The notes under the pieces were generated by a model, which was not told the origin of the DNA, did no database searches, and saw only the letters and a program-made list of their open reading frames with translations. Positions 39,716-62,085 of a DNA stretch of 64,000 bases are shown here, one piece after another. Source of the stretch: Sulfurospirillum diekertiae (GTDB lineage Bacteria; Campylobacterota; Campylobacteria; Campylobacterales; Sulfurospirillaceae); the NCBI RefSeq assembly GCF_002162315.1, contig NZ_CP021416.1, positions 2,492,207 to 2,556,206 on the forward strand, read 5' to 3'. Made by a program: the position numbers and the translations under genes. The stretch's first letter is position 1; every line of letters begins with the position of its first letter.

Positions 39716-39752
39716 CATCTCTCTCCCCCCTACGCTTTTTCGATGCGGCATA
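39589..39752. repeat. Direct repeat, fdhA end and fdhB start (copy 1)
   Basis: 164 bases identical to 44879-45042. It covers the last codons of fdhA, the fdhB ribosome site and the first 42 or so codons of fdhB. Confidence 0.9.
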
Positions 39753-44855: not shown

Positions 44856-45005
44856 TTCCTTACCAGGAATACCTTCATTAATCGTTACAACTTTACGTCT
44901 ACTAATACCTACTGGAAGCTCATGCGCCTCAGCACAAGCGACTGAACAGCCATCACACTCGATACATCTGCTCTCATCGCAGTAAAATTTCATTCTTGCG
45001 TATTC
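44856..45005 (-). pseudogene. fdhB copy 2, N-terminal fragment
   Basis: Starts MEYARMKFYCDESRCIEC with the normal ribosome site and stays identical to FdhB through RRKVVTI, then continues NEGIPGKE, which copy 1 lacks, and at once runs into fdhC sequence (LIIGPKVFPHS). Three of four Fe-S motifs are lost. Either a deletion joined fdhB to fdhC or the assembly joined two repeats wrongly. Confidence 0.8.
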
Positions 45006-45042
45006 CATCTCTCTCCCCCCTACGCTTTTTCGATGCGGCATA
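44879..45042. repeat. Direct repeat, fdhA end and fdhB start (copy 2)
   Basis: Identical to 39589-39752. Upstream of it the two fdhA genes diverge clearly, so the identity is confined to the 3' parts of the operons. Confidence 0.9.
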
Positions 45043-47830
45043 GACCCGTTTTTGTCTCGGGAATTTGCGTCATAATGTCATAGCCGTAACCAACCACGGT
45101 GTTAGCCGACTCGCCTGTTGCGTAAGGTTTTGTACCTGTTGGATAGTTTGCACTTAGATCTTTACCTTGGAATTTACCCATATAGTGGAATGGCATAAAA
45201 ATGGTTTTTTCATCCACCGTTTGTGAGAATTTCGCTTTCACATGAATGCGTGTTCCCTCAACACCATAAACCCATACCATCTCACCGTTACGAATGCCTA
45301 GATTGAGTGCTGTGTTAGGATGAATATCCACAAACATTTCAGGATTGAGTTTTGAGAGGTATTTAGAAGCTCTTGTTTCTGCTCCCGCTCCACTGTGTGT
45401 GACCAAACGACCTGTAATCATAATGAGTGGGAACTCTTTCGTGTAATCTTGTCTGGTTTGTGCGGAGATGTATTTTGTATCAACCCTAAAGTGATCTTTT
45501 TTATCAGGATAGGTCGGATATGCTTTGATCATCTCTTGGCTTGGTGAGTGAATAGGCTCTCTGTGAAGAGGGATTTGATCTGGGAAATTCCACGCTTTGG
45601 CTCTTGCTTTGCCATTGCCGTACGGTGTTAACCCTAAAGCAAGACCTTTTTTGATGAGGATTCCACTCAAATCGGTCGCAAAGTTTTTACCTGCAACGAT
45701 CGCTTTTTCTTCTTCGCTAAACGTTGCACCTGCCTTTTCAAGCATTTCAAGAGTTAATGGACCATGACCTTTCGTAATCGCAGAACCTTTTGGCGCACTG
45801 CCCTCACCTGCAAGAAGAGTGACGCCATCTTTTTCCACACCCCAATTCAGACGGAATCCCATACCGCCATCGGAGACTGGTTTGTTCACGTTATACAAAA
45901 TCGGGCTACCGCTGTGGGTTTCATTCCAACATGGCCATGGAAGTCCGTAGTATTCGCCTTTCATTGGTCCCATTCCAGCGATGCTGACCTCTTCAAACAT
46001 ATGCCAATTCTCTTGGTGTTTTTTAAGACGCTCCGGTGTATGTCCGCCCATACCGATGGAGCGAATACCACGTGCAATCTCACGTGTTGCATCTTCTGGC
46101 CATTCAAATTTACCTTTACCATCGCCTAAGGCTTTGGTGTATTCATCGTAAAAGCCTAAACGTTTCGCAAACTCAAACATAATGTCATGGTCTGTTTTAC
46201 ACTCATACTGAGGTTCAACGACTTTACTTCGCCATTGGACGTTTCTTCCTGTTGCGGTTACGGAACCACTGGTTTCAAACTGAGTTGCCACAGGGAGAAT
46301 AAATAAATTATCTTTTCTATCGGTCAAAATTGCCGCATCATTGATAAAAGGATCTGTGATAACAAGAAGTTCGATGTTATCGAGTCCTTTTTTGACCTCT
46401 TGAAGTTGCGCGGTAGAGGTAATGCCACAGCCCATAACCACAAGGGCTTTAAGATCGGTTCCACCATTGTAAATCGCATCATTTTTCATGACACCCTCAG
46501 ACCAACGCGCCAACGTAAAGCCATTTTTAGTCATCATCTCAGCATTTTTGAAACGACCTTTAATATACTCAGGCTCGACTTTCCAGACGTTGGCAAAGTG
46601 TTTCCATGCTGGTTCAGCCAATCCATAATACCCTGGTAATGTCTCAGAAGAACAGCCCATATCGGATGCGCCTTGAACGTTGTCATGACCACGAAGAATG
46701 TTACAACCGCCGCCTTCAACACCCATATTGCCCAAAATCATCTGCAAGATTGGTCCTACACGAGTATTTCCCGTGCCAACGCTGTGTTGTGTCCAACCCA
46801 TCGTCCAGACTAAACAGCCTGGTTTGGTACTTGCAAATGTTTTAGTCACTTGGTAAAGCTCTTCTTCGCTCACGCCTGTCACTTTGGAAACGACATCCGG
46901 TGTCCATTTCTCAGATTCTTTGAAAACATCTTCGTAGCCATACACGCGGTCTTGCAAATATTTTTTATCTTCCCAACCGTTTTTCAAAATGAGGTGAATC
47001 ATGCCGTAGATAAACGCAATGTCCGTACCAGAACGTAAACGCACGTACATATCTGCTTTCGCCGCTGTTTTGGTAAAGCGCGGTTCAACAACAATCAACT
47101 TTGTGTTGTTTCGCTCTTTGGCTTTTAAGAAATGTTGGAAACCAACAGGATGCGCAACGGCAGGGTTTGCACCCATGATGAGAACCGCTTTAGAGTTTTG
47201 AATGTCTCCTAGTTGGTTGGTCATCGCACCATAACCAAACGTGTTCGCAACTCCCGTTACGGTGGAACTGTGGCAAAGCCTTGCTTGGTGATCGATGTTG
47301 TTTGTACCGTAAAATGCAGCAAATTTACGAAGATAGTACGCTTGCTCATTGCTCATTTTGGCAGAACCCAAGAACATCGCCGCATCAGGGCCGTGTTTTT
47401 CGCGAATGGCTTTTAGTTGTGTGCCAATTTTCGTGTAAGCATCTTCCCAAGAGATACGTTTCCATTGACCACCCACTTTTTCCATTGGGTATTTGACACG
47501 TACGTCGGAGCGAATCATATCGATCATGCCCGCACCTTTGCAGCAGTGACCACCAAGGCTGAGTGGATGATCTTGTGCCACTTCTTGACGAACCCATACA
47601 CCATTGTGAACCTCAGCTACAACGCCACAACCGACTGAGCAGACGTTACAAATTGTTTTAACCAATTTAGAACCAGGGTAAGGATTTTTAACCTCTTCTT
47701 CTGTGGCAGCACGCGTTACTTTTTCACTGGCAAATCCAGCCGTTGCGCCAAAAGCACCCGCAATCGCTGCCATTTTAAGGAAACTTCTTCTTCCTACTTT
47801 TGCATTTAATGCAGTTATTATTTCACTCAC
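45020..47830 (-). CDS. fdhA: Formate dehydrogenase catalytic subunit, cysteine form
   Basis: A 936-residue paralogue of the Sec enzyme, similar along its whole length. Tat signal GRRSFLKMAAIAG, Fe-S site CNVCSVGC with GGHCCKG, and Cys186 (TGC) in HQARLCHSST at the Sec position. It ends with the same TKTGLCRIEKA tail. Cys forms are slower but do not need selenium, so the pair may be used under different selenium supply; this is inference. The downstream fdhB and fdhC of this copy are broken, and the upstream small Tat gene is frameshifted, so it may depend on subunits from copy 1. Confidence 0.93.
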   Translation of the reverse strand: MSEIITALNAKVGRRSFLKMAAIAGAFGATAGFASEKVTRAATEEEVKNPYPGSKLVKTICNVCSVGCGVVAEVHNGVWVRQEVAQDHPLSLGGHCCKGAGMIDMIRSDVRVKYPMEKVGGQWKRISWEDAYTKIGTQLKAIREKHGPDAAMFLGSAKMSNEQAYYLRKFAAFYGTNNIDHQARLCHSSTVTGVANTFGYGAMTNQLGDIQNSKAVLIMGANPAVAHPVGFQHFLKAKERNNTKLIVVEPRFTKTAAKADMYVRLRSGTDIAFIYGMIHLILKNGWEDKKYLQDRVYGYEDVFKESEKWTPDVVSKVTGVSEEELYQVTKTFASTKPGCLVWTMGWTQHSVGTGNTRVGPILQMILGNMGVEGGGCNILRGHDNVQGASDMGCSSETLPGYYGLAEPAWKHFANVWKVEPEYIKGRFKNAEMMTKNGFTLARWSEGVMKNDAIYNGGTDLKALVVMGCGITSTAQLQEVKKGLDNIELLVITDPFINDAAILTDRKDNLFILPVATQFETSGSVTATGRNVQWRSKVVEPQYECKTDHDIMFEFAKRLGFYDEYTKALGDGKGKFEWPEDATREIARGIRSIGMGGHTPERLKKHQENWHMFEEVSIAGMGPMKGEYYGLPWPCWNETHSGSPILYNVNKPVSDGGMGFRLNWGVEKDGVTLLAGEGSAPKGSAITKGHGPLTLEMLEKAGATFSEEEKAIVAGKNFATDLSGILIKKGLALGLTPYGNGKARAKAWNFPDQIPLHREPIHSPSQEMIKAYPTYPDKKDHFRVDTKYISAQTRQDYTKEFPLIMITGRLVTHSGAGAETRASKYLSKLNPEMFVDIHPNTALNLGIRNGEMVWVYGVEGTRIHVKAKFSQTVDEKTIFMPFHYMGKFQGKDLSANYPTGTKPYATGESANTVVGYGYDIMTQIPETKTGLCRIEKA

Positions 47831-48470: not shown

Positions 48471-50468
48471 TTAGAAGCTATAGCGTGCATTAGCGTAGTA
48501 ACTTCGACCTTCTTGAGGATAACCGTAGCTATAGAAGTAGTCTTTATCAAAGATATTTTTAACACCAACTGCGAGTTCAAGTGCTTTGACTGGGCGATAA
48601 GCAACTTTCAAATCCATTAAGAAAAAATCTTTGGTTTGATAATCACCATATCGGTAATCATTGCTCACATAGCGCTCACTCTCATAACGTACTTGAGGAA
48701 TAATATCGACCATGGCGATTGGAGAATATTTTAAACGTCCTGCAAAACTATGTTTTGGTATATCCGTCACATAGGGATTGGCTGGATTATCTTTAATATC
48801 AGCATCAATATAGGTATACGATACACTACTGCTTACGTACTCAGCCCAAAAAGAGTCTAAAGAGACTTCAACGCCTTTATGCTCTTCTTTCCCTATATTT
48901 TGACTTTGCTTGCATTTACCACCTGTGCAAACGCCTACGACATTTGGAACATTCACGGAAGCGATATAATCATCCGATTCGGATAAGAAAAGAGCTACAT
49001 GCGCCACGTGTGCATCTGTTAATTTTTGGTCAATACCCACTTCATAATTAATAGATCGTTCCGCTTTTAAATCGGAATTGGGAACATACGTACCCAGCTT
49101 AGTAGAGTATCTATCTTTTAATGTAGGCATATTGCTTTTTTTAGCAATACTTCCATAGAGAGTCGTCGCATCACTTAGCTTATAGTAAAGTGCTGTTTCT
49201 GGATTGAACGCATCCGTATCATACTTTGGAAACTCTTTAATGGAACTACCACTGCGATATTCTGCTTTATCAATTTTATTTTCATCATAAGAAGCGCCCG
49301 TAACCCATGTAAGTTGATCAGTCACTTTTAATGAATATTCGAGTCCATAAGAAGTTGTTGTTCCCTCAGCTTTTATATCAACACCTGGTGTAGCAGAATC
49401 AATGTCTTTATGATAATCTTTTTTTTGCGTAACCGATAATTTTAACATTTGGGCTTCTGTTAACTTAAAATCTAACTCAGCATTACCACCTAATGTATAA
49501 TCATCATACTCCGTTACTTCCGTTATTTTAGAGCTTGTTGAAGGCAAATTATTGTACCAATTTATCTTATTATAAAACTCATCTCTGTACCAACGTGTCT
49601 TTAACATAATTGCATCATTGAGTGCAGTTTTTGTCAGAAAATAATAACTGGTTTTGTCCCAGTCTGGCCAATACCAATGTCTATTTGTTGCCATGGCAAC
49701 GGGTGCCGTTATATCGCTAGCAAAATAGGGTTGCCCTTTTTCTCCTCGTTGTGCAATATAATTAAAAGCATATTCATCCGTATCGTTAGGCGTATAACCG
49801 ACTTTAATATTGATTTTTCGATCTTGTGAATCTGAGTTTTCTCGTCTACCGCCATTTTCATACCCATTGGCAGTATAATCATTTGATAATTTAAAATAAT
49901 CTCTTTCGTAATTTGAAACAGAGATCAACCCATAATATTTCCCTTGATTGGTTCCCATGGTTAAATACTCTTCTTGCCCATTACCGCTAAAAACACCCGC
50001 ACCCACTTCGCCTTCAAACTCTTTCGTTGGTTTTTTGGTGATAAGATTAACAGCTCCACCCATTGTATTTGCCCCATACATTGGAGAAACATAGCCTTTG
50101 GATACATCAATCTCATCAATATCATAGGTTGTGAAACGACTTAAATCCGTTGTTTTATCGTAAGGGACATAAACAGGGATACCATCGACATAGATAGGCA
50201 CACGACTTTGATTAAAGCCTCGGATACGAATACCCGTATCATTTCGTGCACCTGTTTGCTGAATATACGTACCTGGAATGTTTTCCAATGCTTGAGCAAC
50301 TGTTTTACTCTCTGTATCTTTTATTGTTTGTGCATCTACAAATTCTGTCGTCTGATTTGCACTAATATCTTTTGATTCACTTACCTCAATTTTGCCCAGT
50401 TCAAATGTCTCACCCATCAACACAGATGCGGTGATCAATGAAAGTGCCAAGCCGACGTTGTATTTCAT
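48471..50468 (-). CDS. TonB-dependent outer-membrane receptor
   Basis: A 665-residue receptor. Signal peptide at 1-18, a TonB-box-like stretch FELGKIEVSESKD, a plug domain (TVAQALENIPGTYIQQTGARNDTGIRIRGFNQSRVPIYVDGIPVYVPYD, YGANTMGGAVNLITKKP) and a barrel ending YYANARYSF. One Cys pair (CTGGKC) sits in a late loop. The ligand is not predictable from sequence. It follows the ABC importer genes by 91 bases and has its own upstream ModE-type half-box, so I infer a Mo/W complex or chelator. The ATG at 50468 follows AAAGGAG. Confidence 0.9.
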   Translation of the reverse strand: MKYNVGLALSLITASVLMGETFELGKIEVSESKDISANQTTEFVDAQTIKDTESKTVAQALENIPGTYIQQTGARNDTGIRIRGFNQSRVPIYVDGIPVYVPYDKTTDLSRFTTYDIDEIDVSKGYVSPMYGANTMGGAVNLITKKPTKEFEGEVGAGVFSGNGQEEYLTMGTNQGKYYGLISVSNYERDYFKLSNDYTANGYENGGRRENSDSQDRKINIKVGYTPNDTDEYAFNYIAQRGEKGQPYFASDITAPVAMATNRHWYWPDWDKTSYYFLTKTALNDAIMLKTRWYRDEFYNKINWYNNLPSTSSKITEVTEYDDYTLGGNAELDFKLTEAQMLKLSVTQKKDYHKDIDSATPGVDIKAEGTTTSYGLEYSLKVTDQLTWVTGASYDENKIDKAEYRSGSSIKEFPKYDTDAFNPETALYYKLSDATTLYGSIAKKSNMPTLKDRYSTKLGTYVPNSDLKAERSINYEVGIDQKLTDAHVAHVALFLSESDDYIASVNVPNVVGVCTGGKCKQSQNIGKEEHKGVEVSLDSFWAEYVSSSVSYTYIDADIKDNPANPYVTDIPKHSFAGRLKYSPIAMVDIIPQVRYESERYVSNDYRYGDYQTKDFFLMDLKVAYRPVKALELAVGVKNIFDKDYFYSYGYPQEGRSYYANARYSF

Positions 50469-50496
50469 AGTTTTCTCCTTTAAAATGTTTACCAAA

Positions 50497-50559: not shown

Positions 50560-51345
50560 CTAGTGTTTCGTATGAATAAATGAAGGGATGCAGACGGGAT
50601 AACCACACGCTGTCTGTTTGAGCTCAATATTCGTATGGTAAAGTTCGTTAATCAGCTCTTGTGTAATCGTTTTACATGTAAGCCCATGCGCTAAGATATG
50701 CCCGTCTTTTAGGGCATAGGTATAACCACCGAGCATTAAAGCATGTTCAGGGAAATGGGTTGATTTTAAAAACGTATAGCCTTCCTGAGAGAGGTTCATA
50801 ATCGTCTCTAAAAGGCGTAGCTGATTGCCATAGTCTAATCCCGAAACAGGCTCGTCCATCACTAAGATTTTTGCACCTTGCGCTAAAGAGCGTGCGATTA
50901 GAACCAACTGTTTTTCCCCTCCACTCAGCGTTTGAAAGGTACGCTTTTCCAAATGCAAAATACCCAGCCGATCCATCGCCTCACGTGCTAATTGGATATC
51001 AGCCTGACTTGGCTTTTTAAACCATGTCTCAAAAGCAATGCGACCCATAAGGACAATGTCCAGCGCAAAAAATGCAAATGCCACTTGTGTGCTTTGCGGA
51101 ACATAGCTTACATGGTAAGCGCGTTCTTTGATGGAATAACTCTGTAATGCTTTACCTTTTAAGATCACTTCACCACTTTTAGGGGTCAAAAGTCCCAAAA
51201 AAAGTTTCATCAACGTACTTTTCCCCGTTCCATTCGGACCTAAAAGAGAGACAATACTACCTTTTTCAATGGCAAGATTAACCCCTTGCAAAACAGGCTT
51301 ATTATTGTAAGAGAAGAAGAGATTTTTGGCTTGATAAAAACTCAT
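50560..51345 (-). CDS. ABC importer ATPase, FecE/BtuD/MolC type
   Basis: A 261-residue ATPase: Walker A GPNGTGKST, signature LSGGEKQLVLIARSL, Walker B ILVMDEPVSGLD and switch His STHFPEHAL. The sequence is of the class that serves iron-siderophore, B12 and MolABC-type molybdate importers. It overlaps the permease by four bases. The C-terminus has two Cys (TACGYPVCIPS) that are unusual for the family. Confidence 0.88.
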   Translation of the reverse strand: MSFYQAKNLFFSYNNKPVLQGVNLAIEKGSIVSLLGPNGTGKSTLMKLFLGLLTPKSGEVILKGKALQSYSIKERAYHVSYVPQSTQVAFAFFALDIVLMGRIAFETWFKKPSQADIQLAREAMDRLGILHLEKRTFQTLSGGEKQLVLIARSLAQGAKILVMDEPVSGLDYGNQLRLLETIMNLSQEGYTFLKSTHFPEHALMLGGYTYALKDGHILAHGLTCKTITQELINELYHTNIELKQTACGYPVCIPSFIHTKH

Positions 51346-52358
51346 GCGAACCCTTTTTTAGCATTACGAAGCGCCAAAACAAAAATAGGAATACCAATGA
51401 GTGATGTTGCAATACCAATGGGAATTTCAACACTCATAGACGTACGACACAACGTATCGACAATGACTAAAAATGTCGCACCTAACAGCGCACACATTGG
51501 AAGTAAAATGCGGTTATCCGCACCGACTAAAAAACGTGCAATATGGGGAATAATAAGCCCTACCCAACCAATCATCCCTGCGACAACAACCGTTAAGGTA
51601 CTTAAAAGAGTTGCCAATAAAATCGCACCATTGCGTACCCATGTAACGCGTACACCCAAAGCTTTGGCATCATCATCACCAAGACTTAAAACGTTCAGGT
51701 ATTTGCCCATCAAGCAGAGCATAATCGTACTTATCAGAAGTGGGAAAGCGACATTTGCAACCATCTTCATATCTACCGCACTGAAAGAGCCCATCAGCCA
51801 GTAAACAATGGTCGGAAGTTTATTGTAAGGGTCGGCAACATATTTCACCGTAGAAAGCAGTGCAGAGAAAAGTGAGCTAGAGATGACACCACCTAAGACT
51901 AAAAGAATGGTCTGTGAACCACTTCGACCATAAATCTTTGCCACGCCAAGTGCCACTAAAACAGCCACAAACCAAAAACGAAAGAAAAAAAGTTGCACCC
52001 CAAACCAACTATCAGAAATCATAATACCCAGAGCTGCTCCAAAAGAGGCACCCGCAAGCACGCCTAAAATTCCAGGAGAGACCAGAGGATTCACAAACAT
52101 TGCTTGAAATGCTCCACCTGAAACCGATAACGCTGCTCCCACAAGTACAACGGCTAAGATACGTGGTAAGCGTATGTCAAAAACGATATTTGAAAGTAGT
52201 GCTACTTCGTTAGGCGCACTACCTATGGTAAAAAATTTCCATAAAAGAAGTTGCCCTAATGTTCTAAGATCAATTTCATAACGTCCCAAAGCCAAAGAAA
52301 TAAGCAGACTCGCACCTAGTGCCACAATAATCATGCTAAAAAGAAGCGAGTTTTTCAT
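51342..52358 (-). CDS. ABC importer permease, FecCD/MolB family
   Basis: A 338-residue permease with ten helices: RLPRILAVVLVGAALSVSGGAFQAMFVNPLVSPGILGVLAGASFGAALGI is the FecCD hallmark, and GWVGLIIPHIARFLVG the later one. It forms a dimer in the inner membrane with the ATPase and takes substrate from the binding protein encoded just before it. It overlaps both neighbours by four bases. Confidence 0.9.
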   Translation of the reverse strand: MKNSLLFSMIIVALGASLLISLALGRYEIDLRTLGQLLLWKFFTIGSAPNEVALLSNIVFDIRLPRILAVVLVGAALSVSGGAFQAMFVNPLVSPGILGVLAGASFGAALGIMISDSWFGVQLFFFRFWFVAVLVALGVAKIYGRSGSQTILLVLGGVISSSLFSALLSTVKYVADPYNKLPTIVYWLMGSFSAVDMKMVANVAFPLLISTIMLCLMGKYLNVLSLGDDDAKALGVRVTWVRNGAILLATLLSTLTVVVAGMIGWVGLIIPHIARFLVGADNRILLPMCALLGATFLVIVDTLCRTSMSVEIPIGIATSLIGIPIFVLALRNAKKGFA

Positions 52359-53371
52359 ACACGCCCCAAAATGTGATGAAGCTGTGTATCGTTTAGATCA
52401 ATGTTTAAAAAGAGTTTGTAAAATTCACGCATCTCTTGTGTAAATTGCTCTGAATTTGGTGTATTGTAAAGGATATGTGTCAGCCATCTTACCCCTAAAA
52501 GACGCATAAATGAGGGTGGTCGGTCGATCCAGTTAAATGGCACTTTGGGCACTAAAAAGATCTTGCCCTCACGAACCGCTTTGATGGAGTTCCACCTTGC
52601 ATCGCTTTTAACTTTTTCCACAAATTCTCGCTCTTGCGCCACAATGATGTCAGGGTTATACAAAATCACCTGTTCTAAAGAGACTTTTTCAAGCCCCATA
52701 CCACTTTTCGTGGTACATAAATGGGGATTAATACCCCCTGCAAATTTGATCGCTTCATAGTGAAATGATTGATCACACTCCGTAGCAAGTCCATCCGCAC
52801 CCTCTGCGTAATAGACAACAGGGCGTGTAGCGGCATTGGTCTTGACAACCTCTTTTGTTTTTTCAAGTGCTTTTGTTGCATAGTCTGAGAGTATCTTCGC
52901 TCGTTGCTCTTTGCCTAAAACCTCCCCAAAGAAGAGATAGGCTTTCGGTAAACTCTCTACACTTTCAAGATCAACATCAATGCTTGGAATTTTGCTACTC
53001 TCAAAGAGATACTGTGCCAATTGGCTAGAAGCATCGTTATTCCACAAAAAGACAACATCGGGATGCAACGAGAGCAAGGTTTCACGGTTCATGCTGTTCC
53101 CTCCACCTTGAAGACCGCCTACGACAGGAAGTGCCATAAAGCGAGGATCAAGCATATTGGAAGACTCATTATTCCCACGGGCATGGTTAAAGTTAAGCCC
53201 TACAATTAGTGAAGAATCAATCGTATAGATCATGTAAGTTGAAGGCGGTGACGTACCAAACACTTTGGTAATGACATCGGGAATTTCAACTTTTTTACCA
53301 CCCATGTCGACAATTTCACGCGCACTTAGGCTTAATAGTAAACACAAAAGTGCCCACACTATTTTTTTCAT
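52355..53371 (-). CDS. ABC importer periplasmic binding protein (BtuF/MolA-like fold)
   Basis: A 338-residue binding protein with a signal peptide (IVWALLCLLLSLSA). It has the two-lobe pattern with RVLGTS-like start (VFGTSPPSTYMIYTID), LLSLHPDVVFLWNND and, in the second lobe, VVYYAEGADGLATECDQSFHYEA and PFNWIDRPPSFMRLLG. The same two motifs occur in the protein at 58368. It takes the ligand delivered by the TonB receptor. The ATG at 53371 overlaps the previous stop codon (ATGA) and has GGA six bases before it; an ATG at 53377 is the alternative. Confidence 0.88.
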   Translation of the reverse strand: MKKIVWALLCLLLSLSAREIVDMGGKKVEIPDVITKVFGTSPPSTYMIYTIDSSLIVGLNFNHARGNNESSNMLDPRFMALPVVGGLQGGGNSMNRETLLSLHPDVVFLWNNDASSQLAQYLFESSKIPSIDVDLESVESLPKAYLFFGEVLGKEQRAKILSDYATKALEKTKEVVKTNAATRPVVYYAEGADGLATECDQSFHYEAIKFAGGINPHLCTTKSGMGLEKVSLEQVILYNPDIIVAQEREFVEKVKSDARWNSIKAVREGKIFLVPKVPFNWIDRPPSFMRLLGVRWLTHILYNTPNSEQFTQEMREFYKLFLNIDLNDTQLHHILGRV

Positions 53372-54402
53372 TCCCATTCCTTTTTTTCATCGCAATAAGG
53401 GCGTACCGCTTCATTGAATGTTCGTAAAAGCGTTATGTTTTCAAAAAGATCAACACCAAGTGGTTTAAGCGTTATCGTGACATTTTCTAAACATGCTTGA
53501 ATGGCTTTGATTTTAGCAATACATGTTTTTGCATCGCCGATAATGCCACAATCAAAAAATTTCTGCCCATCAAAAAAGGTACTCCTCTCAGCTATAAGCT
53601 GTTTGTATCTGCTTTGATCAAAATGGGGTGATTTATGAAATGAAGAGGCCGCACGCATTGACTTCGCAAAATGGTCAATCGCAGGACGTGCTTTATAAGC
53701 TGCTTCTTCATCACTTTTAGCAACATAAAATGTCCGCAAAAGTACGATCTGCGGTTTAAAACCAGCAATAGCTTCATATGCTTGGCTTACACGTGCACAT
53801 TCGTCTAAATCAACCCCTTGCGAAAGCATCAGCCCAAAACCTTTTTTGGCAGCAAAGGCGATGGTTTCATCTGAGGCAAACGTTGCAATGTACGTGGGAA
53901 TCTTCGCTTGAAACGGTTTTGGCTCGATATCAACTTCTGAAAAATGAATAAATTTACCCTCAAAACCAACGGGTTGATCCTTTACATGTAAAAGCTGTGT
54001 AACAGCATCCACACACTCAAACATCATCGGGCGCAGGTTTTCTACTGTGACATTAAAATGCTTTGAATCGGGTGCAAAAGCGCCTTTGGCAAAGCCTAGG
54101 TTGATTCTACCTTGACTTAAGTGATCTAGCGTTGCAACCTCTTCCGCTAAGCGAATAGCATCATAAAAGGGGGCTAAAAAACCAGCACATCCCAGCCTCA
54201 CATACTTCGTTCGTGCCGTAGTGTACGCTAAAAGAAGTGACGGAGAAGGACAAATACTAAAATCATTAAAGTGGTGTTCCCCCAGCCAAACTTCATCAAA
54301 TCGCATCGCATCGACCAGTTCAATCAGTTTGAGCTGATTTTCAATCGCTTGGTTGGCATTCACATTAAAGCGCTCAAAGAGGCAAAAAATTCCCCATTTC
54401 AT
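53368..54402 (-). CDS. LLM-class flavin-dependent oxidoreductase (luciferase-like)
   Basis: A 344-residue protein with the bacterial luciferase fold: MKWGIFCLFERF, FDEVWLGEHHFNDFSICPSPSLLLAYTTARTKYVRLGCAGFLAPFYDAIRLAEEVATLDHLSQGRINLGFAKG are all family marks. It would use FMNH2 and oxygen on a small substrate. In a metal-uptake operon this may break down or modify an organic chelator to release the metal; that is inference. It overlaps the globin gene before it and the binding-protein gene after it by four bases each. TTACATGTAA occurs inside at 53982. Confidence 0.85.
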   Translation of the reverse strand: MKWGIFCLFERFNVNANQAIENQLKLIELVDAMRFDEVWLGEHHFNDFSICPSPSLLLAYTTARTKYVRLGCAGFLAPFYDAIRLAEEVATLDHLSQGRINLGFAKGAFAPDSKHFNVTVENLRPMMFECVDAVTQLLHVKDQPVGFEGKFIHFSEVDIEPKPFQAKIPTYIATFASDETIAFAAKKGFGLMLSQGVDLDECARVSQAYEAIAGFKPQIVLLRTFYVAKSDEEAAYKARPAIDHFAKSMRAASSFHKSPHFDQSRYKQLIAERSTFFDGQKFFDCGIIGDAKTCIAKIKAIQACLENVTITLKPLGVDLFENITLLRTFNEAVRPYCDEKKEWE

Positions 54403-54944
54403 ACGATTCCAAACTCCTCTTTCATATCTTTATATAAAAAACGCTTCATGGGCGTTGTCAAACTTCGACGGTTCACCATGCGCATCGAAAAAGGCTCAAT
54501 CCAGTTCCAAAACTCTTCGATCAACTCTTTAGGAAAATTAAGATCATGGAGGGTTTGCTTGTACATCATAAGCCATACTTCCCTACTCTCATCGTCAATG
54601 GCAAAGGGAGCATGAGTACGGCACAAAGAGGGTGGACCGTAACTAAAGGTATAGGTTTTCTCGCCCCCTAAGGCCTGAATAAGAAAATGACTTGCTTTGG
54701 CAACCCCTTCCAAAAAATGAGCATCATCCGTTGGATACATCTGCGCAATAGCACTTTTTTGCAGTAAACGATGATGATGTAGCACAATTTTGGGAATGGT
54801 TTCAGCGCCTACTTTTCCTAAAAAACTGGGCGTTGGGAAAATGATCGGAGGCAATGAAGCTTTGAGATCAAAGCTACTCCATTTAAGAGGTTCACTCTTT
54901 TTAGGAGTCGTTAGTTTATGAAGAAAATGATGACCATTACACAT
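54399..54944 (-). CDS. Group II-like truncated globin with N-terminal extension (globin 1)
   Basis: A 181-residue protein. Residues about 45-170 match a group II truncated haemoglobin: LGGEKTYTF, the heme-ligand His111 in RTHAPF and Trp124 in EVWLMMYKQ. Compared with the usual 130 residues it has about 45 extra at the front (CNGHHFLHK onward) and a C-terminal EPFSMRMVNRRSLTTPMKRF that is also present in the globin at 57760. It lies between tonB and the luciferase-like gene. Oxygen or NO handling for the flavin enzyme, or heme sensing, are possible roles. Confidence 0.78.
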   Translation of the reverse strand: MCNGHHFLHKLTTPKKSEPLKWSSFDLKASLPPIIFPTPSFLGKVGAETIPKIVLHHHRLLQKSAIAQMYPTDDAHFLEGVAKASHFLIQALGGEKTYTFSYGPPSLCRTHAPFAIDDESREVWLMMYKQTLHDLNFPKELIEEFWNWIEPFSMRMVNRRSLTTPMKRFLYKDMKEEFGIV

Positions 54945-54953
54945 AAAATCTCC

Positions 54954-55649
54954 TTAGGATTTAAGCTTGAACACAACGGGTATTGCAATTTCCAACTCCT
55001 CTTTGGGTGGAAGCTCAAAAGGGATGGCATCTAAGACAGCATCGATAGCATTGCGATCTAAAATCGCTTTGCCACTGGACTTTGCAATCTTAATGGACGA
55101 TGCATCTACCATGCCATTGGAATGAATTAAAAACTGCACCACCGCCTCACCTTCCAATCCCATTTTTTTTGCCATAGAGGGATAACGAAGGCTCTCTTGA
55201 ATCTTATGCCTTACTTTGGCAAGGTAAATGGAGAGCAAATCATCGCTTTGGTGCGAAGATGATACGGAAGCTTTTTCTTGTGTTTTAGCACTGGCGGGCG
55301 CTTCCGCCGTTTGTTCGACAAAAGAGTCACTTGAAGGAGCTGATGACACAATAGGCTCTTGAATGTGTTTTTGAATAGGGACTGTTTTAACAGGCTCTTT
55401 TTGAACTTTTTTTTTCAGGTTTTTTTCTACTATCGGCTCAGGTTTAACAGGTTCTAATGGAACTTCATGTTTGATTTCTTCAGCGGCTGGTGTGGGTTTT
55501 GGCTCGTCTAAAAAACTCACCTGTGTCACCACAAACTCGCGAATAACAGGCTTTGGAATCATCATACTCCCCATAAAAAGAGCATACGCAATCATTACAT
55601 GTAAAAACAGCGTACCCAAAGAGGCGGCAAAAAAATGCGATGCTTTCAC
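54954..55649 (-). CDS. tonB: TonB energy-transducing protein
   Basis: A 231-residue TonB: an N-terminal membrane anchor (SLGTLFLHVMIAYALFMGSMM), a long Pro/Lys/Glu-rich stretch (KPTPAAEEIKHEVPLEPVKPEPI) and the C-terminal domain with SLRYPSMAKKMGLEGEAVVQFLIHSNGMVDASSIKIAKSSG, the YP motif of TonB. It joins ExbB-ExbD in the inner membrane to the receptor encoded in the same operon. It overlaps exbD by four bases. Confidence 0.92.
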   Translation of the reverse strand: MKASHFFAASLGTLFLHVMIAYALFMGSMMIPKPVIREFVVTQVSFLDEPKPTPAAEEIKHEVPLEPVKPEPIVEKNLKKKVQKEPVKTVPIQKHIQEPIVSSAPSSDSFVEQTAEAPASAKTQEKASVSSSHQSDDLLSIYLAKVRHKIQESLRYPSMAKKMGLEGEAVVQFLIHSNGMVDASSIKIAKSSGKAILDRNAIDAVLDAIPFELPPKEELEIAIPVVFKLKS

Positions 55650-56053
55650 GTACCTGCCTTGGTCGTTTGAATTGCAAATGTACTAATGCGATGTTTTTTG
55701 CAAATGTCAATCACTTTGACAACATATTCAAACGGTGTTTTAGCGTCGCTGCGAAGCACAATATGAGGATCTTTTTCGCCTATCTGTGCCATTTTTGTAT
55801 CTAAATCGTCTATAGAGAGTGCCACATCATCGTAATACAGTTCTCCCGTTTCACTCAAAGAGAGCGTAATGGGCTTTTGATCCTCTTTATGATTTTCAGC
55901 GTTCGTGGCCTGTGGTAAATTCAGAGGAATCTTACCTTGTGTTACAAAGGTAGCTGTCACCATAAAAATGACCAAGATAACCAGCACAATATCAACAAAA
56001 GGCGTCATATTAATCTCGGCAATATCACTCTCGTAGACAGGTTCACGCCTCAT
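55646..56053 (-). CDS. exbD: ExbD proton-channel subunit
   Basis: A 135-residue protein with one membrane helix (INMTPFVDIVLVILVIFMVTATFV), in which the Asp of TPFVDIV is the proton-conducting residue, and a periplasmic domain ending AIQTTKAGT. It overlaps exbB by 11 bases and tonB by four. Confidence 0.93.
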   Translation of the reverse strand: MRREPVYESDIAEINMTPFVDIVLVILVIFMVTATFVTQGKIPLNLPQATNAENHKEDQKPITLSLSETGELYYDDVALSIDDLDTKMAQIGEKDPHIVLRSDAKTPFEYVVKVIDICKKHRISTFAIQTTKAGT

Positions 56054-56489
56054 TGAGTTGTGCTTCCTTCTGTGTTAAAACCACTTTGACGCGTCTTGTG
56101 AAATAGTTATAGGCGATAACACATGGAATCGCAACAAAAAGACCCGTAGCAGTTGCAATCAAGGCTTCAGAGATGCCTTGCATAATGGGCTGTACATCAA
56201 AAGCATTGGAAGATCCTATCATATGAAATGCTTGAATAATTCCTAAAACAGTTCCAAAGAGTCCTATAAAGGGGGCGTTATTGCCAAATGTGGCTAAAAT
56301 ACCTAAACGCGCTTCAAGACTCAGACGTAATGTATAATAATCAATACTTTGATAGTTTTTTTGAATGGCTCCAAACGCCAAAAAACGCTCGATCATCACG
56401 CCAACGGCGATGACACTCATAGAAACCAACACCCAAAGTACAGGGTCAATTCCCACAAGAGCGAATGATAATAATTTTTCACTGAGCAT
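56043..56489 (-). CDS. exbB: ExbB proton-channel subunit
   Basis: A 148-residue MotA/TolQ/ExbB protein with three helices and the hallmark NNAPFIGLFGTVLGIIQAFHMIG and EALIATATGLFVAIPCVIAYNYF. It is the first gene of the nine-gene operon that runs to the TonB receptor. An extended palindrome with a ModE-type box lies 33-80 bases before its start. Confidence 0.93.
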   Translation of the reverse strand: MLSEKLLSFALVGIDPVLWVLVSMSVIAVGVMIERFLAFGAIQKNYQSIDYYTLRLSLEARLGILATFGNNAPFIGLFGTVLGIIQAFHMIGSSNAFDVQPIMQGISEALIATATGLFVAIPCVIAYNYFTRRVKVVLTQKEAQLNEA

Positions 56490-56521: not shown

Positions 56522-56569
56522 TTTTCGCTCAATCGCTATATACTATACATAATAACGGTTGAGCGAAAA
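56522..56569 (-). promoter_or_regulatory. ModE-type box inside a larger inverted repeat, exbB promoter
   Basis: TTTTCGCTCAA (56522-56532) and TTGAGCGAAAA (56559-56569) form an 11-bp inverted repeat around CGCTATA-N8-ATAATAACG (56534-56557), a 24-bp ModE-type box. The whole could act as operator and, once transcribed, as an RNA hairpin. Confidence 0.65.
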
Positions 56570-56763: not shown

Positions 56764-57537
56764 ATGTTAGAAGCACGACTTTGGATGAAAAAAAGCGATA
56801 AAAATTATCTCGGTAAAGGGCGTATAGAGCTTTTAGAACACATTCGAGAACATGGATCTATTCATGCAGCAGCTAAAGCGATGAAAATGAGTTACAAAGC
56901 TGCTTGGGATTCAGTGGATGCGATGAACAACCTTTCTGAAATTCCACTGGTGCAAAAAACAAGCGGTGGTAAAGGCGGCGGAGGAACACTTCTGACACCT
57001 AAAGGCGAAGAGGTCATCGCAGCATTTCACAACTTACAAGAAAAACATCAACAATTTTTAGATCTTTTTGCGAACAGCGAAGATCTACTCACGATCGTTC
57101 AAACACTTAGCCGCCTCTCTTTGAAACTCAGCGCGCGTAACCAACTGATAGGCACTATTAGTGCTATTAATGAAGATACGGTGAATGTTGCCGTTGAGCT
57201 TACGATCAAAGCTGCTGATAAAATTTACGCAAGCATCACCAAAAACAGTTATCAAGAACTCGGTCTGCATCTAGGGGAGAATGCTATTGCTATCATTAAA
57301 GCAAGTTCGGTGTTGCTTTCCAAGAGTAAACCCGCTATTGCCTGCGAAAATTTACTCAAAGGGACTATTATTCAAATTCTTAGTGATACCTCCAATACAG
57401 AAGTCACATTGGAGCTTGAAAGTAAAAGTACCATCACTGCCACCATTGCCAATGATGCATTTGAGCCACTAAACCTCAAAGTCAATGCGGAGGCCTATGC
57501 ATTTTTCAAAGCATCTAATGTTATCTTAGGCGTTTAA
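56764..57537 (+). CDS. modE: ModE, molybdate/tungstate-responsive regulator
   Basis: A 257-residue full-length ModE. Residues 1-110 form the winged HTH (GRIELLEHIREHGSIHAAAKAMKMSYKAAWDSVDAMN, then GGKGGGGTLLTPKGEEVI). Residues about 125-190 and 195-257 are two Mop domains (ARNQLIGTISAINEDTVNVAVEL and CENLLKGTIIQILSDTSNTEVTLEL) that bind oxyanion. ModE with bound molybdate or tungstate binds 24-bp palindromes; four such boxes lie in this cluster. The gene is divergent from exbB. The ATG at 56764 follows AGGAA. Confidence 0.93.
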   Translation: MLEARLWMKKSDKNYLGKGRIELLEHIREHGSIHAAAKAMKMSYKAAWDSVDAMNNLSEIPLVQKTSGGKGGGGTLLTPKGEEVIAAFHNLQEKHQQFLDLFANSEDLLTIVQTLSRLSLKLSARNQLIGTISAINEDTVNVAVELTIKAADKIYASITKNSYQELGLHLGENAIAIIKASSVLLSKSKPAIACENLLKGTIIQILSDTSNTEVTLELESKSTITATIANDAFEPLNLKVNAEAYAFFKASNVILGV

Positions 57538-57688: not shown

Positions 57689-57712
57689 CATTATGTTTTA
57701 ATTTATATAACG
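57689..57712 (+). promoter_or_regulatory. ModE-type box before globin 2
   Basis: CATTATG-N8-TATATAACG, 24 bases, 48-71 bases before the globin 2 start. The right half is perfect and the left half has two differences. Confidence 0.6.
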
Positions 57713-57759: not shown

Positions 57760-58329
57760 ATGCCAGTTATGGTTGATGGTGTTAAAGTACAACTCTTTAG
57801 TGAATGTGACCCCAACGCCCCTTTCCCACAAACGGATGAAAATCTAAGACGTGCCCACCCGAAGATTGATGTGATCTTTCCCGAAGTCTTCTTCCCTTCC
57901 AACAAAACCTATCTAGCGATTGGAGAAGCCAAAATTCGTGAAGTGGTTAAGTTGCACCATGATCTCGTGCGTAAAAGTAAAATCGGTCATCTTTATCCTC
58001 AAGAGGAAGCTGCTTTTATTGCAGCCACAACAAAAATTGAAGATTTTTTTGTACAAATGTTAGGTGGTGCTGATCTGTACACCTCCAAACAAGGTCATCC
58101 AAAGCTCAGAGAACGTCATTTTCCCTTTGAAGTCACTGAAACAGGGCGTGACATCTGGCTGATGTGTTTTAAAAAAGCACTCAAACAAGCGCATGTTCCT
58201 AAAGAGTTTTTACCCGAAATTTGGAATTGGGTTGAATCCATCTCAATGCGTATGATCAATAGACGTACCAGTATGGAAATGCTCAAACGTTACCCTTATG
58301 AGAGTATTCAATCTTATTTTGACGCTTAA
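57760..58329 (+). CDS. Group II-like truncated globin with N-terminal extension (globin 2)
   Basis: A 189-residue protein with the clearest group II globin core: LGGADLYTSKQGHPKLRERHFPF (heme-ligand His120), then GRDIWLMCFKKAL with Trp133. About 50 extra residues precede the core (residues 1-50, with CDPNAPFPQ and IDVIFPEVFFPS), where globin 1 has IIFPTPSFLG. The C-terminal SISMRMINRRTSMEMLKRYPY matches that of globin 1. So the two are paralogues, each next to a binding-protein gene and each linked to a ModE-type box. The role is unknown; binding of O2, NO or sulfide, or heme-linked redox work on a metal complex, are options. Confidence 0.8.
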   Translation: MPVMVDGVKVQLFSECDPNAPFPQTDENLRRAHPKIDVIFPEVFFPSNKTYLAIGEAKIREVVKLHHDLVRKSKIGHLYPQEEAAFIAATTKIEDFFVQMLGGADLYTSKQGHPKLRERHFPFEVTETGRDIWLMCFKKALKQAHVPKEFLPEIWNWVESISMRMINRRTSMEMLKRYPYESIQSYFDA

Positions 58330-58367
58330 CGCTCTTTACATGTAAAAACAATCCCAAAGGATTTTTG

Positions 58368-59390
58368 ATGCGCTATTTACTTCTCTTTTTACTTTTTTTT
58401 AGTTCACTTTTTGCCAATACAACACGCACATTTACTGATATTTCAGGAAAAAACATCAGCTTACCTGAACATGTCACACGTATTTATGGCTCAGCTCCTC
58501 CTATTACTTTTATGCTTTATGTCATCGATGATGCTCCACTCATTGGTGTGAATTTTCCACAGACAAATAAAGACAATAGTGATGGTGAGAAATTTTTAAG
58601 CAAACACTTTATGAGCCTTCCTGTATTGGGTGGTTGGCATGGAAACAACACCCCTAACTTAGAGGCGATTATCGCAGTAAAACCCGATGTCATTGTGACA
58701 TGGGATACGCCACTTCTCAATGAAAAAACGGCCAAAGATTTAGCACGCATCAATATTCCAGCTCTCAAAGTGAATATTGATGATTCACGTCATTATCCTG
58801 AAGTCTTTCGCTATCTTGGAAAAGTGATGCACAAGGAAGATCGTGCTAATCAGCTTGCAAATATGGCACAAAATTATTTGGATGAGCTTAAAAATTTTGT
58901 AGCGACTGTTCCTGAGCAAGAGCGTACCAAAGTGTATTACGCAGAAGGTGATTTCGGACTTCAAACAGAGTGTGACGTCTCATTTCACTCTGAACCTTTA
59001 ACGCTTGCGGGAGGAAATTTAGTCCATAAATGTGTTCAAAATAGTGTTATCGGACTGCAAGAAGTCAGTTTTGAGCAGGTTCTCATCTATGCTCCCGATG
59101 TCATTATTGTGCAAAACCCCGCTTTTTATAAAACAATTTTTACCGATAAAAAATGGGCTATGCTTAAAGCGGTTCAAACAAAAAGAGTGTACTTAGTACC
59201 AAAATCTCCTTTTAACTGGACCGATCGTCCACCTTCCTTTATGCGTATTATTGGGGCACATTGGATTGCCAGTAAACTCTATCCAACACGTTACCCTTTT
59301 AAGATTCAAGAAAAAGTGAGAGCGTTTTATCAACTCTTCTTTGGTGTCGCACTGAGTGACGAAGATCTCAAAACTTATTTTGATCTTTAA
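58368..59390 (+). CDS. Periplasmic binding protein, paralogue of the operon's binding protein
   Basis: A 340-residue binding protein with a signal peptide (LLLFLLFFSSLFA). It shares with the protein at 53371 the second-lobe motifs VYYAEGDFGLQTECDVSFHSEP and PFNWTDRPPSFMRIIG, and the order of the rest. No permease lies with it, so it probably uses the FecCD-type permease encoded at 52358. It is 38 bases after globin 2 and 78 before the radical SAM gene. The ATG at 58368 follows AAAGGA. Confidence 0.87.
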   Translation: MRYLLLFLLFFSSLFANTTRTFTDISGKNISLPEHVTRIYGSAPPITFMLYVIDDAPLIGVNFPQTNKDNSDGEKFLSKHFMSLPVLGGWHGNNTPNLEAIIAVKPDVIVTWDTPLLNEKTAKDLARINIPALKVNIDDSRHYPEVFRYLGKVMHKEDRANQLANMAQNYLDELKNFVATVPEQERTKVYYAEGDFGLQTECDVSFHSEPLTLAGGNLVHKCVQNSVIGLQEVSFEQVLIYAPDVIIVQNPAFYKTIFTDKKWAMLKAVQTKRVYLVPKSPFNWTDRPPSFMRIIGAHWIASKLYPTRYPFKIQEKVRAFYQLFFGVALSDEDLKTYFDL

Positions 59391-59396: not shown

Positions 59397-59427
59397 AGAC
59401 TCTCTCATCAACCTTTTAGAGAGTCTC
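59397..59427 (+). terminator. Hairpin between the binding protein and radical SAM genes
   Basis: AGACTCTCT (59397-59405) pairs with AGAGAGTCT (59418-59426), followed by CTGGTTTGC. The T run is poor, so it may be a partial terminator or an mRNA processing site. Confidence 0.5.
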
Positions 59428-59468: not shown

Positions 59469-61250
59469 ATGATCTGCCCAATTTGTGAACGAAGATGCCG
59501 TGTTGAAGAGAACAGTGTTGGTGCATGTGGACGTTATCAATGTCACAACAATACCATGCTCGAACGCTTCCCAAACTCGTATCTTGTGGTAGCTCCCATT
59601 TCGGCTGAGACGATGCCAGTGCTTCACTTTCATCCCCGTGCAAAGTTTTTGCAAATTAGTACCACTGGGTGTAATTTTGACTGTTTGGGGTGCATTTCAA
59701 CAGTGGTGGCTAAAGAGATGGATGTGCAAAGTCCTGCACTTAAAAAACTCTCTCCCATACAAATTGTCAACAAAGCATTGGAGCAAGAGTGCGATGGTAT
59801 CGCTTTTTTAATGAACGATCCCCTCGCCTCTTTTTATAGCTTTCTTGAAATCTGCACCTTAGCCAAAGAGTGTGGGCTGCTGACAGGCTGTTCCACCAAT
59901 GGCTATTTCACACCCGAATCGCTTAATCTGCTCGCTCCGCATTTGGATTTTGTGAACATTGGGCTTAAAGGTTTGTGCAATGACATCTACAAAAGTTGTG
60001 GCGCAAACAGTTACAAACCTGTTTTACGTAACATTGAACTTTTTTACCGAAAAGGCGTTCATGTCGAAGTGGCGTGTATTCATAAAAAAGATAATGATGA
60101 TGAAGTTCTTGCTATTGCAGATACTATAGCAAAGATTTCGAAAGAGATTCCGCTTCAGATCATGCGGTTTATTCCTATTGATGATGCCAATATTAACCTT
60201 GAGCCATCCATCTTAGCTTCGGAAATGCTTTACAAAAAACTCACATCACGCCTTGATTATGTCTACTTGTTTAACTCCCCAGGATCAGAGTGCCTGAACA
60301 CCTACTGCCCAGAATGTGGTGCACTCATTTTTGAGCGAGATTTTTACGGCCCAATGGGTTCAAAATTAAGAACAATCAGCCACAACTATCAGAACAATAC
60401 CTGTTCACACTGTCATCATAAACTTCCTATCGTAGGGAACCCTTGTCAAAAAGTCTTTGATGAAGATGGTTTTGAAGGCGGATACCCACTTACTAGAGCA
60501 CTCGAAATTGTCGAAGGAACACTCGCAACACTTGGTGTGACAGATCAAAAAGAAGTTACGACATGTTGGGAAGAACTTTTACGTGGGGATGGACTAAAAC
60601 GTTTACATGTAAACATTCAAAACTTTGAAGATTATGCCACTACCATTCATTATCTTGCCAAAATGACCCACACAGAGACTACCGCCAAAAAACTTCTAGC
60701 CTATATGCGAGACAAAATTGCCATTATTGCGCAAGAACTTCCAAAGGTAATAACAAAGCCCCGTGTTTATTACGTCATGGGTAAACCTTTATTTGCACTT
60801 GAAGAGGAGCGACTTGAAAATAAATTGGTCGAGATGGCCGGTGGCATTAGTGTCAATAAAACGCTGGGTTTAAAAGGAAGACCTGGGCGAAAAATATCGG
60901 TTGAAACACTCAATGCACTCAACCCAGACGTTATTTTTATCTCTTCTTTTTTGGATTGTCCGTTGGAAGAATTTTACACCTTCTGTGAAGAGCAAGGCAT
61001 TGTTGTCAATGCGGTAAAGACTAAACGCATCTATACGCATCTTGCCCCTTGCTTTGATTTTGGAAGTCCAAGATGGATTTTGGGTTTGATGCACATTGCC
61101 AATATGCTACACCCCGAGCTCTATCATTTTGATGTCTTACACGAAGCAAAATTCTTCTATCAGGAATTTTACGACACGCCATTAAACATCACTTCGATTA
61201 ATCGTTCTTTCGCAAAACCAAGTCAATATCATAAGATGCTTCATATTTAA
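59469..61250 (+). CDS. Radical SAM enzyme fused to a periplasmic-binding-protein-like domain
   Basis: A 593-residue cytoplasmic protein without a signal peptide. Residues 1-20 have four Cys (C3, C6, C10, C20) as in AmmeMemoRadiSam/PflA-like enzymes. The SAM cluster motif is C68-NFD-C72-LG-C75. A C-terminal Cys set (CLNTYCPECG near 280 and CSHCHH near 320) may bind another cluster or Zn. From about residue 430 the sequence is a lobe of the BtuF/MolA-type binding protein: PRVYYVMGKPLFAL, LENKLVEMAGGISVNKT, LNALNPDVIFISSF, PRWILGLMHIANMLHP. I know no characterised enzyme of this build. It may act on, or sense, the ligand taken up by the cluster's importer. Confidence 0.8.
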   Translation: MICPICERRCRVEENSVGACGRYQCHNNTMLERFPNSYLVVAPISAETMPVLHFHPRAKFLQISTTGCNFDCLGCISTVVAKEMDVQSPALKKLSPIQIVNKALEQECDGIAFLMNDPLASFYSFLEICTLAKECGLLTGCSTNGYFTPESLNLLAPHLDFVNIGLKGLCNDIYKSCGANSYKPVLRNIELFYRKGVHVEVACIHKKDNDDEVLAIADTIAKISKEIPLQIMRFIPIDDANINLEPSILASEMLYKKLTSRLDYVYLFNSPGSECLNTYCPECGALIFERDFYGPMGSKLRTISHNYQNNTCSHCHHKLPIVGNPCQKVFDEDGFEGGYPLTRALEIVEGTLATLGVTDQKEVTTCWEELLRGDGLKRLHVNIQNFEDYATTIHYLAKMTHTETTAKKLLAYMRDKIAIIAQELPKVITKPRVYYVMGKPLFALEEERLENKLVEMAGGISVNKTLGLKGRPGRKISVETLNALNPDVIFISSFLDCPLEEFYTFCEEQGIVVNAVKTKRIYTHLAPCFDFGSPRWILGLMHIANMLHPELYHFDVLHEAKFFYQEFYDTPLNITSINRSFAKPSQYHKMLHI

Positions 61251-61281: not shown

Positions 61282-61305
61282 CGTTATAGTTCCAAGTATA
61301 TAACG
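61282..61305 (+). promoter_or_regulatory. ModE-type box before the methyltransferase
   Basis: CGTTATA-N8-TATATAACG, 24 bases; the best of the four boxes, with both halves complete except for one base. It ends 15 bases before the start codon. It also shows that translation does not start at 61270. Confidence 0.75.
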
Positions 61306-61320: not shown

Positions 61321-62085
61321 ATGGAACCAGCATTTAATTTTTGGGACAATATGGCAAAGCGTTACCCACGCTTTAACGATATAACAATGAGCAAAGACGT
61401 CAATCATATTTTAAATTGGTGCCAAAATAAAAATGTTTCATTTGAGGGTGCTTCTATTTTAGATATTGGAGCAGGAACCGGAACCATTGCCATTCCTTTA
61501 GCACAAAAAGGGGCACAGGTAACTGCTATGGATATTTCAGAAGGAATGTTGGCAGCACTCAATGAAGATGCAAAAGAACAAGGACTCAGCTCAAAAGTTT
61601 CTACGCACCAAAGCGATTGGGATTCATTTCCATTAAACCAAAAATATGACATAGTTATCGCTTCAATGACCCCTGCGATTAGTGACCTACAAAAAATTGA
61701 AAAAATGCTTGGAGCTACAAAAGGGATAGGCATCTATGTTGGTTGGGGGAAATACCGCATTAATAAATTGGTTGAAGCTCTAGTCAAAGCCCATACAAAA
61801 GAAGAAGAGGATTGTGCATCGGGTGGCTGTATCAAAGCCAATCAATTTATTGAAATTTTAAAAGAGAAAAACATTCCTTTTGAGAGCGATTTTTTTGCAA
61901 CATCTTGGGTCGACATGTACACCTTTGATGAGGCAAAAGAGTATTCTTATGATCAGCTCAAACGTAAAGAGATAACCCCTGATGAAGAGATTGTAGAATC
62001 TATTTTAGTATCGTTTCTTAAGGACGATAAAGTCCATGTAAAAACGGAAGCAGAAAAAGGGATGGTTTTGTGGAACGTCGCTTAA
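61321..62085 (+). CDS. Class I SAM-dependent methyltransferase
   Basis: A 254-residue methyltransferase with motif I ILDIGAGTGTIAIPLA, motif II VTAMDISEGMLAAL and the acidic DIVIASMTPAISDL. Two Cys (EDCASGGCIKANQF) lie in the middle. The target is unknown; similar enzymes sit beside FecCD-type importers in other anaerobes, and modification of a metal ligand is possible. The ATG at 61321 follows AAAGGA; the ModE-type box lies just before it. Confidence 0.85.
   Translation: MEPAFNFWDNMAKRYPRFNDITMSKDVNHILNWCQNKNVSFEGASILDIGAGTGTIAIPLAQKGAQVTAMDISEGMLAALNEDAKEQGLSSKVSTHQSDWDSFPLNQKYDIVIASMTPAISDLQKIEKMLGATKGIGIYVGWGKYRINKLVEALVKAHTKEEEDCASGGCIKANQFIEILKEKNIPFESDFFATSWVDMYTFDEAKEYSYDQLKRKEITPDEEIVESILVSFLKDDKVHVKTEAEKGMVLWNVA

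Follow-up and report, generated by a model that had tools for sequence, protein, structure and literature searches.

A radical SAM enzyme fused to a truncated class III binding protein in a TonB/FecCD importer cluster of Sulfurospirillum

Why would a radical SAM enzyme carry part of a periplasmic binding protein? The question is raised by an unbroken reading frame of 593 residues (59469-61250, plus strand), with a plausible Shine-Dalgarno sequence (AAAGGA) ahead of its ATG, in a 64,000-nucleotide stretch of Sulfurospirillum diekertiae DNA (contig NZ_CP021416.1, positions 2,492,207 to 2,556,206; hereafter, the window). An earlier note on this DNA had described the product as a cytosolic binding-protein lobe joined to a radical SAM domain, and had suggested that the enzyme recognises the ligand carried by the adjoining importer or has become a sensor. 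Sequence, predicted structure and conservation all bear out this description of the protein. Its parts are known, and the combination was not found described: our search of the literature, which was partly narrow, yielded no report of a radical SAM/half binding-protein fusion. To our knowledge, no described enzyme uses a periplasmic binding-protein lobe for substrate recognition.

Domain make-up and predicted structure

The features of the fusion are as follows (positions in the window):
59469-61250, plus strand: radical SAM/half binding-protein fusion, 593 aa, with 10 orthologues aligned over the full length
59469-60434, plus strand: radical SAM enzyme part, residues 1-322 (Pfam match at 64-219; model matches PFL-AE 3c8f and NifB)
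59475-59528, plus strand: N-terminal cysteine motif C3-x2-C6-x3-C10-x9-C20, common to AmrS-like enzymes (alignment)
59670-59693, plus strand: CxxxCxxC, residues 68-75, predicted radical [4Fe-4S] site, invariant in 10 orthologues
60306-60413, plus strand: C-terminal CxxC...CxxC (C280, C283, C312, C315) at the end of the radical SAM part, invariant and also found in AmrS-like proteins
60435-61193, plus strand: truncated class III binding protein, residues 323-575 (profile and AlphaFold2 model)
Within the binding-protein part: N-lobe remnant helices, residues 339-371; inter-lobe helix, 403-426; C-lobe, 432-568
61194-61247, plus strand: tail with an invariant NRSFAKPS, predicted to be disordered (alignment and model)

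Pfam identified a Radical_SAM domain (PF04055) at residues 64-219 (E 6e-18; 66 bits, cut-off 29.5) and a Peripla_BP_2 domain (PF01497) at residues 376-523 (E 8e-9; 35.7 bits, gathering cut-off 27.5), the latter spanning only positions 92-230 of the 235 in the profile. Both domains were matched in all 10 orthologues. The CxxxCxxC motif lies exactly where the earlier note had placed it, at residues 68-75 (C68, C72 and C75), and, as in other radical SAM enzymes, a [4Fe-4S] cluster at this site would cleave SAM reductively. Inspection by eye of the N-terminus (MICPICERRC...) revealed a cysteine motif common to AmrS-type enzymes and, in agreement with that note, no visible signal peptide; the protein is presumably cytosolic. 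The boundary between the two halves had been set at residue 430, which is incorrect: the radical SAM part ends at residue 322, and similarity to binding proteins extends from about residue 339 (structure) or 376 (HMM) to about 575.

With its N-terminal cysteines, core motif and closing CxxC pairs, the radical SAM part (residues 1-322) is complete. It can be aligned with AmrS over residues 2-322, with all three cysteine motifs in common and about 30% identity. However, it scored 117.9 bits against the AmrS model (TIGR04337), for which the cut-off is 220, and should therefore be considered a relative of AmrS rather than a member of this family. Unlike the fusion, AmrS has no binding-protein half, and neither Memo nor AMMECR1, the partners of AmrS, was found among the eight locus proteins scanned with Pfam. 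In the full-length model, the closest solved fold to the radical SAM part was that of PFL-AE (3c8f, Z 19.5), and the barrel fold is also common to NifB (Z 16.6). Unlike NifB, the fusion has no NifX-like domain, its additional lobe being the C-lobe of a binding protein, and no nitrogenase genes were seen in the window.

As the earlier note had stated, the C-terminal part is a relative of each of the cluster's two binding proteins, with 26% identity to PBP2 over 224 aa (E 2e-14) and 21% identity to PBP1 (E 9e-7) in BLASTP. Likewise, global profile-profile alignment of the family of residues 323-593 with the binding proteins of the genus gave a probability of 99.8 (E 9e-30). AlphaFold2 modelled the full-length protein with a mean pLDDT of 82.9 and a pTM of 0.81, and residues 323-593 alone with values of 80.3 and 0.80, respectively. 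The earlier proposal depended on a binding-protein fold in this part of the protein, and this fold was recovered when the part was modelled alone: the model matched 4ovk (Z 19.4, 238 residues, 3.5 Å), 4hn9 (Z 19.4), the molybdate binding protein MolA (HI1472; Z 17.8, 220 residues, 3.3 Å), the Sulfurospirillum deleyianum binding protein 4pag (Z 17.3) and BtuF (Z 12.7). MolA was also among the nearest solved relatives of the lobe in the full-length model. The binding proteins matched by sequence are also present in the alignment underlying the models, which therefore do not provide evidence independent of that match. The pTM for the whole chain suggests that the two domains are packed in a defined manner, rather than as beads on a string.

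The fold is incomplete. Neither AlphaFold2 model contained a beta strand of three or more residues between residues 323 and 431, where the sheet of the N-lobe would lie, and all that remains of the N-lobe is therefore two or three helices (339-371, 375-378) ahead of the inter-lobe helix. The C-lobe (432-568) is intact and the inter-lobe helix is present, but the protein does not have the pair of alpha/beta lobes, linked by a long helix, of a class III binding protein (PF01497). Most of the N-lobe, which forms half of the normal cleft, is absent, and the binding of a small ligand cannot therefore be assumed. The lobe displays 20-26% sequence similarity to known binding proteins, and its loops differ from those of PBP2, the TECD and RPPS motifs being replaced. 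The predicted fold is that of MolA, 4ovk and 4pag (Z 17.3-19.4) but, unlike these proteins, the fusion has no visible signal peptide, has helices in place of an N-lobe, is joined to an enzyme and is probably cytosolic. In the 10 orthologues, 77% of the ligand-side loop positions, assigned by hand, were invariant, versus 51% for the remainder of the lobe (p = 0.002); these sequences are kin, so this p value is generous and the conservation of the loops is supportive rather than strong evidence. Overall, there is good support for an architecture that joins a PFL-AE/AmrS-like radical SAM enzyme to a class III binding protein lacking most of its N-lobe.

Gene cluster and predicted ModE regulation

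The fusion lies in a cluster with the following members, the ModE-like operators being given without strand:
48471-50495, minus strand: TonB-dependent receptor (Pfam and NCBIfam)
50560-51345, minus strand: ABC ATPase of the importer (sequence character and synteny)
51342-52358, minus strand: FecCD-type permease (sequence character and synteny)
52355-53377, minus strand: PBP1, first periplasmic binding protein (Pfam)
53368-54402, minus strand: luciferase-like flavin monooxygenase, optional cluster member (Pfam, synteny)
54399-54944, minus strand: truncated globin 1, optional cluster member (Pfam, synteny)
54954-56489, minus strand: TonB, ExbD and ExbB (sequence character and synteny)
56534-56557: ModE-like operator between exbB and modE (match to the published consensus)
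56764-57537, plus strand: ModE-type regulator, helix-turn-helix and Mop/TOBE (TIGR00637, TIGR00638)
57689-57712: ModE-like operator upstream of globin 2-PBP2-fusion (equivalent site in other complete clusters)
57760-58329, plus strand: truncated globin 2 (Pfam Bac_globin, E 7.5e-21)
58365-59390, plus strand: PBP2, periplasmic binding protein directly upstream of the fusion (PF01497, E 1e-15)
59397-59426, plus strand: stable hairpin between PBP2 and the fusion (dG -16.4 kcal/mol, z -3.8)
61282-61305: ModE-like operator upstream of the methyltransferase (match to the ModE consensus)
61321-62085, plus strand: class I SAM methyltransferase, after the fusion (Methyltransf_25, E 1e-15)

The fusion thus follows globin 2 and PBP2 and precedes the methyltransferase. 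Synteny is maintained in the orthologues, with the globins, the monooxygenase and a second receptor varying independently. In G022 and G025, a methyltransferase gene is present on both sides of the fusion (L047:7213-10596 and L048:10780-14163). The hairpin between PBP2 and the fusion has no T-run and was absent from the single relative folded; it is possibly a read-through attenuator or an mRNA stabiliser, and may set the expression ratio of the two genes.

The cluster regulator was matched by TIGR00637 (99.8 bits, cut-off 98.5) and TIGR00638 (115 bits, cut-off 55), and fell below the full-length ModE equivalog model PRK10676 (174.5 versus 369 bits). The ModE consensus is ATCGCTATATANNNNNNTATATAACGAT (PMC2700814). 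Ten matches to it with up to two mismatches were found in the window, versus 2.15 expected in shuffled sequences, and only the boxes at 56534, 57689 and 61282 had no more than one mismatch. These three best sites of the window occupy the three promoter regions of the cluster, and the other complete clusters have ModE-like sites in equivalent positions. A genome-wide search of G000 with the palindromic pattern CGNTATN12ATANCG yielded four exact matches, versus none for the reversed control; two lie in the fusion cluster, one at L065 and one at L071, all beside TonB-transport modules. In six other genomes, the pattern was about as frequent as its control, so these counts do not separate signal from chance, and it is the positions of the sites that carry weight. 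Predicted ModE regulation of the fusion cluster is well supported at the level of sequence, and ModE would presumably control it in vivo.

The L065 module (7195-11030; C1 of the genome that carries the window, about 1.022-1.026 Mb), with an operator matching at 16/16 positions, encodes a binding protein, a TonB receptor and a class I methyltransferase; methyltransferases recur next to such ModE-boxed modules. At L071 (5326-7435; C1, about 2.473-2.475 Mb), the exact ModE-like box is followed by a TonB receptor in two separate ORFs, which may be a pseudogene resulting from a frameshift. On an Indioceanicola plasmid, a similar binding protein sits with molybdate-transport and TOBE genes. By sequence character, the window also contains apparent tungstate and molybdate transporters and formate dehydrogenases. 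One formate-dehydrogenase-like catalytic subunit (39730-42585, minus strand) consists of two ORFs split by an in-frame TGA (...HQARI-TGA-HSSTV), where the neighbouring paralogue at 45020-47830 has Cys; the TGA is probably a selenocysteine codon, and no Rfam match to a SECIS element was found in 37000-64000. In the second formate dehydrogenase operon (44182-45020, minus strand), an FdhB-like start runs directly into the middle portion of an FdhC-like sequence, an apparent internal deletion that would have removed most of FdhB.

Distribution, constraint and loss

In the survey of the fusion that the earlier note had proposed, orthologues were confined to Sulfurospirillum within the set of genomes examined, occurring in 10 of the 24 species of this genus that were searched (identity 67-98%). 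None was detected in the other 20 of the 44 genomes searched for the family, elsewhere among 397 Campylobacterota genomes, or in the plasmids and viral contigs searched. A scan of 84,980 species likewise found no fusion outside Sulfurospirillum, but was made with two short linker peptide patterns only and is insensitive to distant fusions. Rarity is established for Campylobacterota only, because the search beyond the phylum consisted of this short-pattern scan and the plasmids.

Purifying selection acts on both halves of the protein. The dN/dS values estimated by YN00 ranged from 0.037 to 0.106 for the radical SAM part and from 0.075 to 0.092 for the lobe, several ortholog pairs that gave no numerical estimate being excluded from these ranges. 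A pseudogene or chance read-through was rejected, given the 10 stop-free orthologues with 67-98% identity and dN/dS of 0.04-0.11 where estimable.

Three genomes (G020, G023 and G028) have retained the cluster without the fusion, the methyltransferase directly following PBP2. Between these two genes, ATGNTGnAAATTTAA remains, a sequence that matches the final codons of the fusion and its stop. In a tree based on PBP2 and ModE, the fusion-less G020 and G023 were close to the fusion-bearing G017 and G018, with low values for the inner nodes (0.34-0.82). Loss, the simplest reading, probably occurred in all three genomes. At least three species have the importer but not the fusion, which is therefore not required for uptake; because it is optional within one genus, species that have it can be compared with natural counterparts that lack it.

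Two other types of locus were encountered. In genomes of another family (f7; L043-L046), four ORFs that begin like AmrS and are about 595 aa long probably represent a different fusion: an AMMECR1-like ORF adjoins them, and their C-terminal extension of about 270 aa is probably Memo rather than a binding protein, which would make this a second kind of C-terminal fusion to a radical SAM enzyme of this type. At L066:2764-9968 (G023 C14), which encodes a receptor, a binding protein, FecCD, an ATPase and a TOBE protein, a CxxxCxxC protein (5381-6412) adjoins the binding protein, which has similarity to the lobe (E 2e-14). This may be an unfused counterpart; the CxxxCxxC protein had a marginal radical SAM match (E 0.045) and no relative in the 397 genomes of the phylum. 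The G023 genome is 78% complete, and the pair is therefore a lead.

Possible functions of the fusion

Our answer to the opening question is a tentative one, to which we give somewhat less than an even chance: the fusion may be a cytosolic radical SAM enzyme that processes the ligand of the adjoining ModE-controlled TonB/FecCD importer, with the half binding protein as its recognition lobe. In the course of events that we infer, a carrier complex of Mo or W would enter via the TonB receptor and the FecCD transporter, the ligand most likely being a complex of either metal or an organic chelator carrying it. The fusion would then bind the complex or its carrier in the cytosol. The truncated binding protein, packed against the barrel, would form one wall of the recognition site, and the barrel the other, in place of the N-lobe. 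Radical chemistry would modify or break the carrier without oxygen, and the neighbouring methyltransferase, which also lies behind a ModE-like box, may complete the same processing.

This reading draws on the domain make-up, the defined packing suggested by the pTM, purifying selection, synteny, the predicted operators, the likeness of the lobe to MolA, the setting of the similar binding protein in Indioceanicola and the precedent of HmuW. HmuW, a radical SAM enzyme whose gene accompanies a heme importer, opens heme in the absence of oxygen (PMC10404700). The fusion resembles the anaerobic heme-degrading radical SAM methyltransferases HmuW, HutW and ChuW in that its gene lies with those of a TonB/ABC metal-ligand importer, and the O2-independent processing of the import proposed for it would resemble theirs. 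In contrast, it belongs to another radical SAM subfamily and has another regulator, and HmuW, HutW and ChuW have no binding-protein lobe; no HemN/HutW-type model was found among its 18 NCBIfam hits up to E 0.1. Recognition of the importer's ligand, as envisaged in the earlier note, finds only indirect support, in a shared predicted ModE regulon, the position directly behind PBP2 and the more strongly conserved ligand-side loops, whereas the N-lobe half of the cleft is largely missing. A lobe without most of its N-lobe may bind nothing small; the low similarity of the lobe to known binding proteins and the persistence of the importer in species lacking the fusion also count against this reading, and the cluster could build a metallophore rather than break one.

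The first of these objections underlies the main rival explanation, in which the half binding protein has given up ligand binding to become a structural or docking domain that closes the barrel, dimerises or recruits a protein partner, for example the methyltransferase, the barrel alone recognising the substrate. We regard this as rather unlikely. The absence of the N-lobe strands, the replaced TECD and RPPS loops, the invariant NRSFAKPS tail and the methyltransferase genes flanking the fusion in G022 and G025 point in this direction; the greater conservation of the ligand-side loops points away from it, although a protein-contact surface would look alike. It is distinctly unlikely that the enzyme helps to make a small Mo- or W-binding metallophore or cofactor, as a NifB-like barrel with a carrier domain, the lobe holding the growing product. 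The match to NifB would be expected of any PFL-AE-like barrel, and the company of a methyltransferase, a flavin monooxygenase and globins is consistent with such a role, but the ORFs listed near the fusion included none recognised as an exporter, a peptide synthetase or a precursor peptide. Moreover, the importer is constant from species to species, whereas each enzyme gene may be present or absent independently of the others, a pattern that suits optional processing better than a biosynthetic pathway.

An activase or protein-modifying enzyme of the PFL-AE/YjjW type, the lobe of which would recognise a protein substrate, appears very unlikely: PFL-AE is the closest solved radical SAM fold and there is an NCBIfam match to YjjW (30 bits, far under the cut-off), but no glycyl radical enzyme was recognised among the neighbours, and a metal-ligand binding fold would be an odd means of recognising a protein. 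The other suggestion of the earlier note, a change of role to that of a cytosolic sensor for the imported ligand, is scarcely credible. Class III binding-protein domains do serve as cytosolic sensors, as in Btr of Bacillus subtilis, in which the domain is combined with an AraC helix-turn-helix. Unlike Btr-type regulators, the fusion has an incomplete lobe and no DNA-binding, kinase or other output domain, and is an enzyme rather than a regulator; its radical SAM motifs are invariant in the 10 orthologues, and a dedicated metal sensor, ModE, is already encoded in the cluster.

Returning to the processing of the importer's ligand, we would advance with marked doubt the fuller picture in which the binding-protein lobe of an importer was recruited to the cytosol, where it would form one half of a cleft and the barrel the other, in an enzyme dedicated to the anaerobic release of Mo or W from its imported carrier under ModE. 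If true, the uptake of a metal carrier would be tied directly to radical chemistry, which would point to a TonB-dependent route of Mo or W acquisition with enzymatic release of the metal under ModE control.
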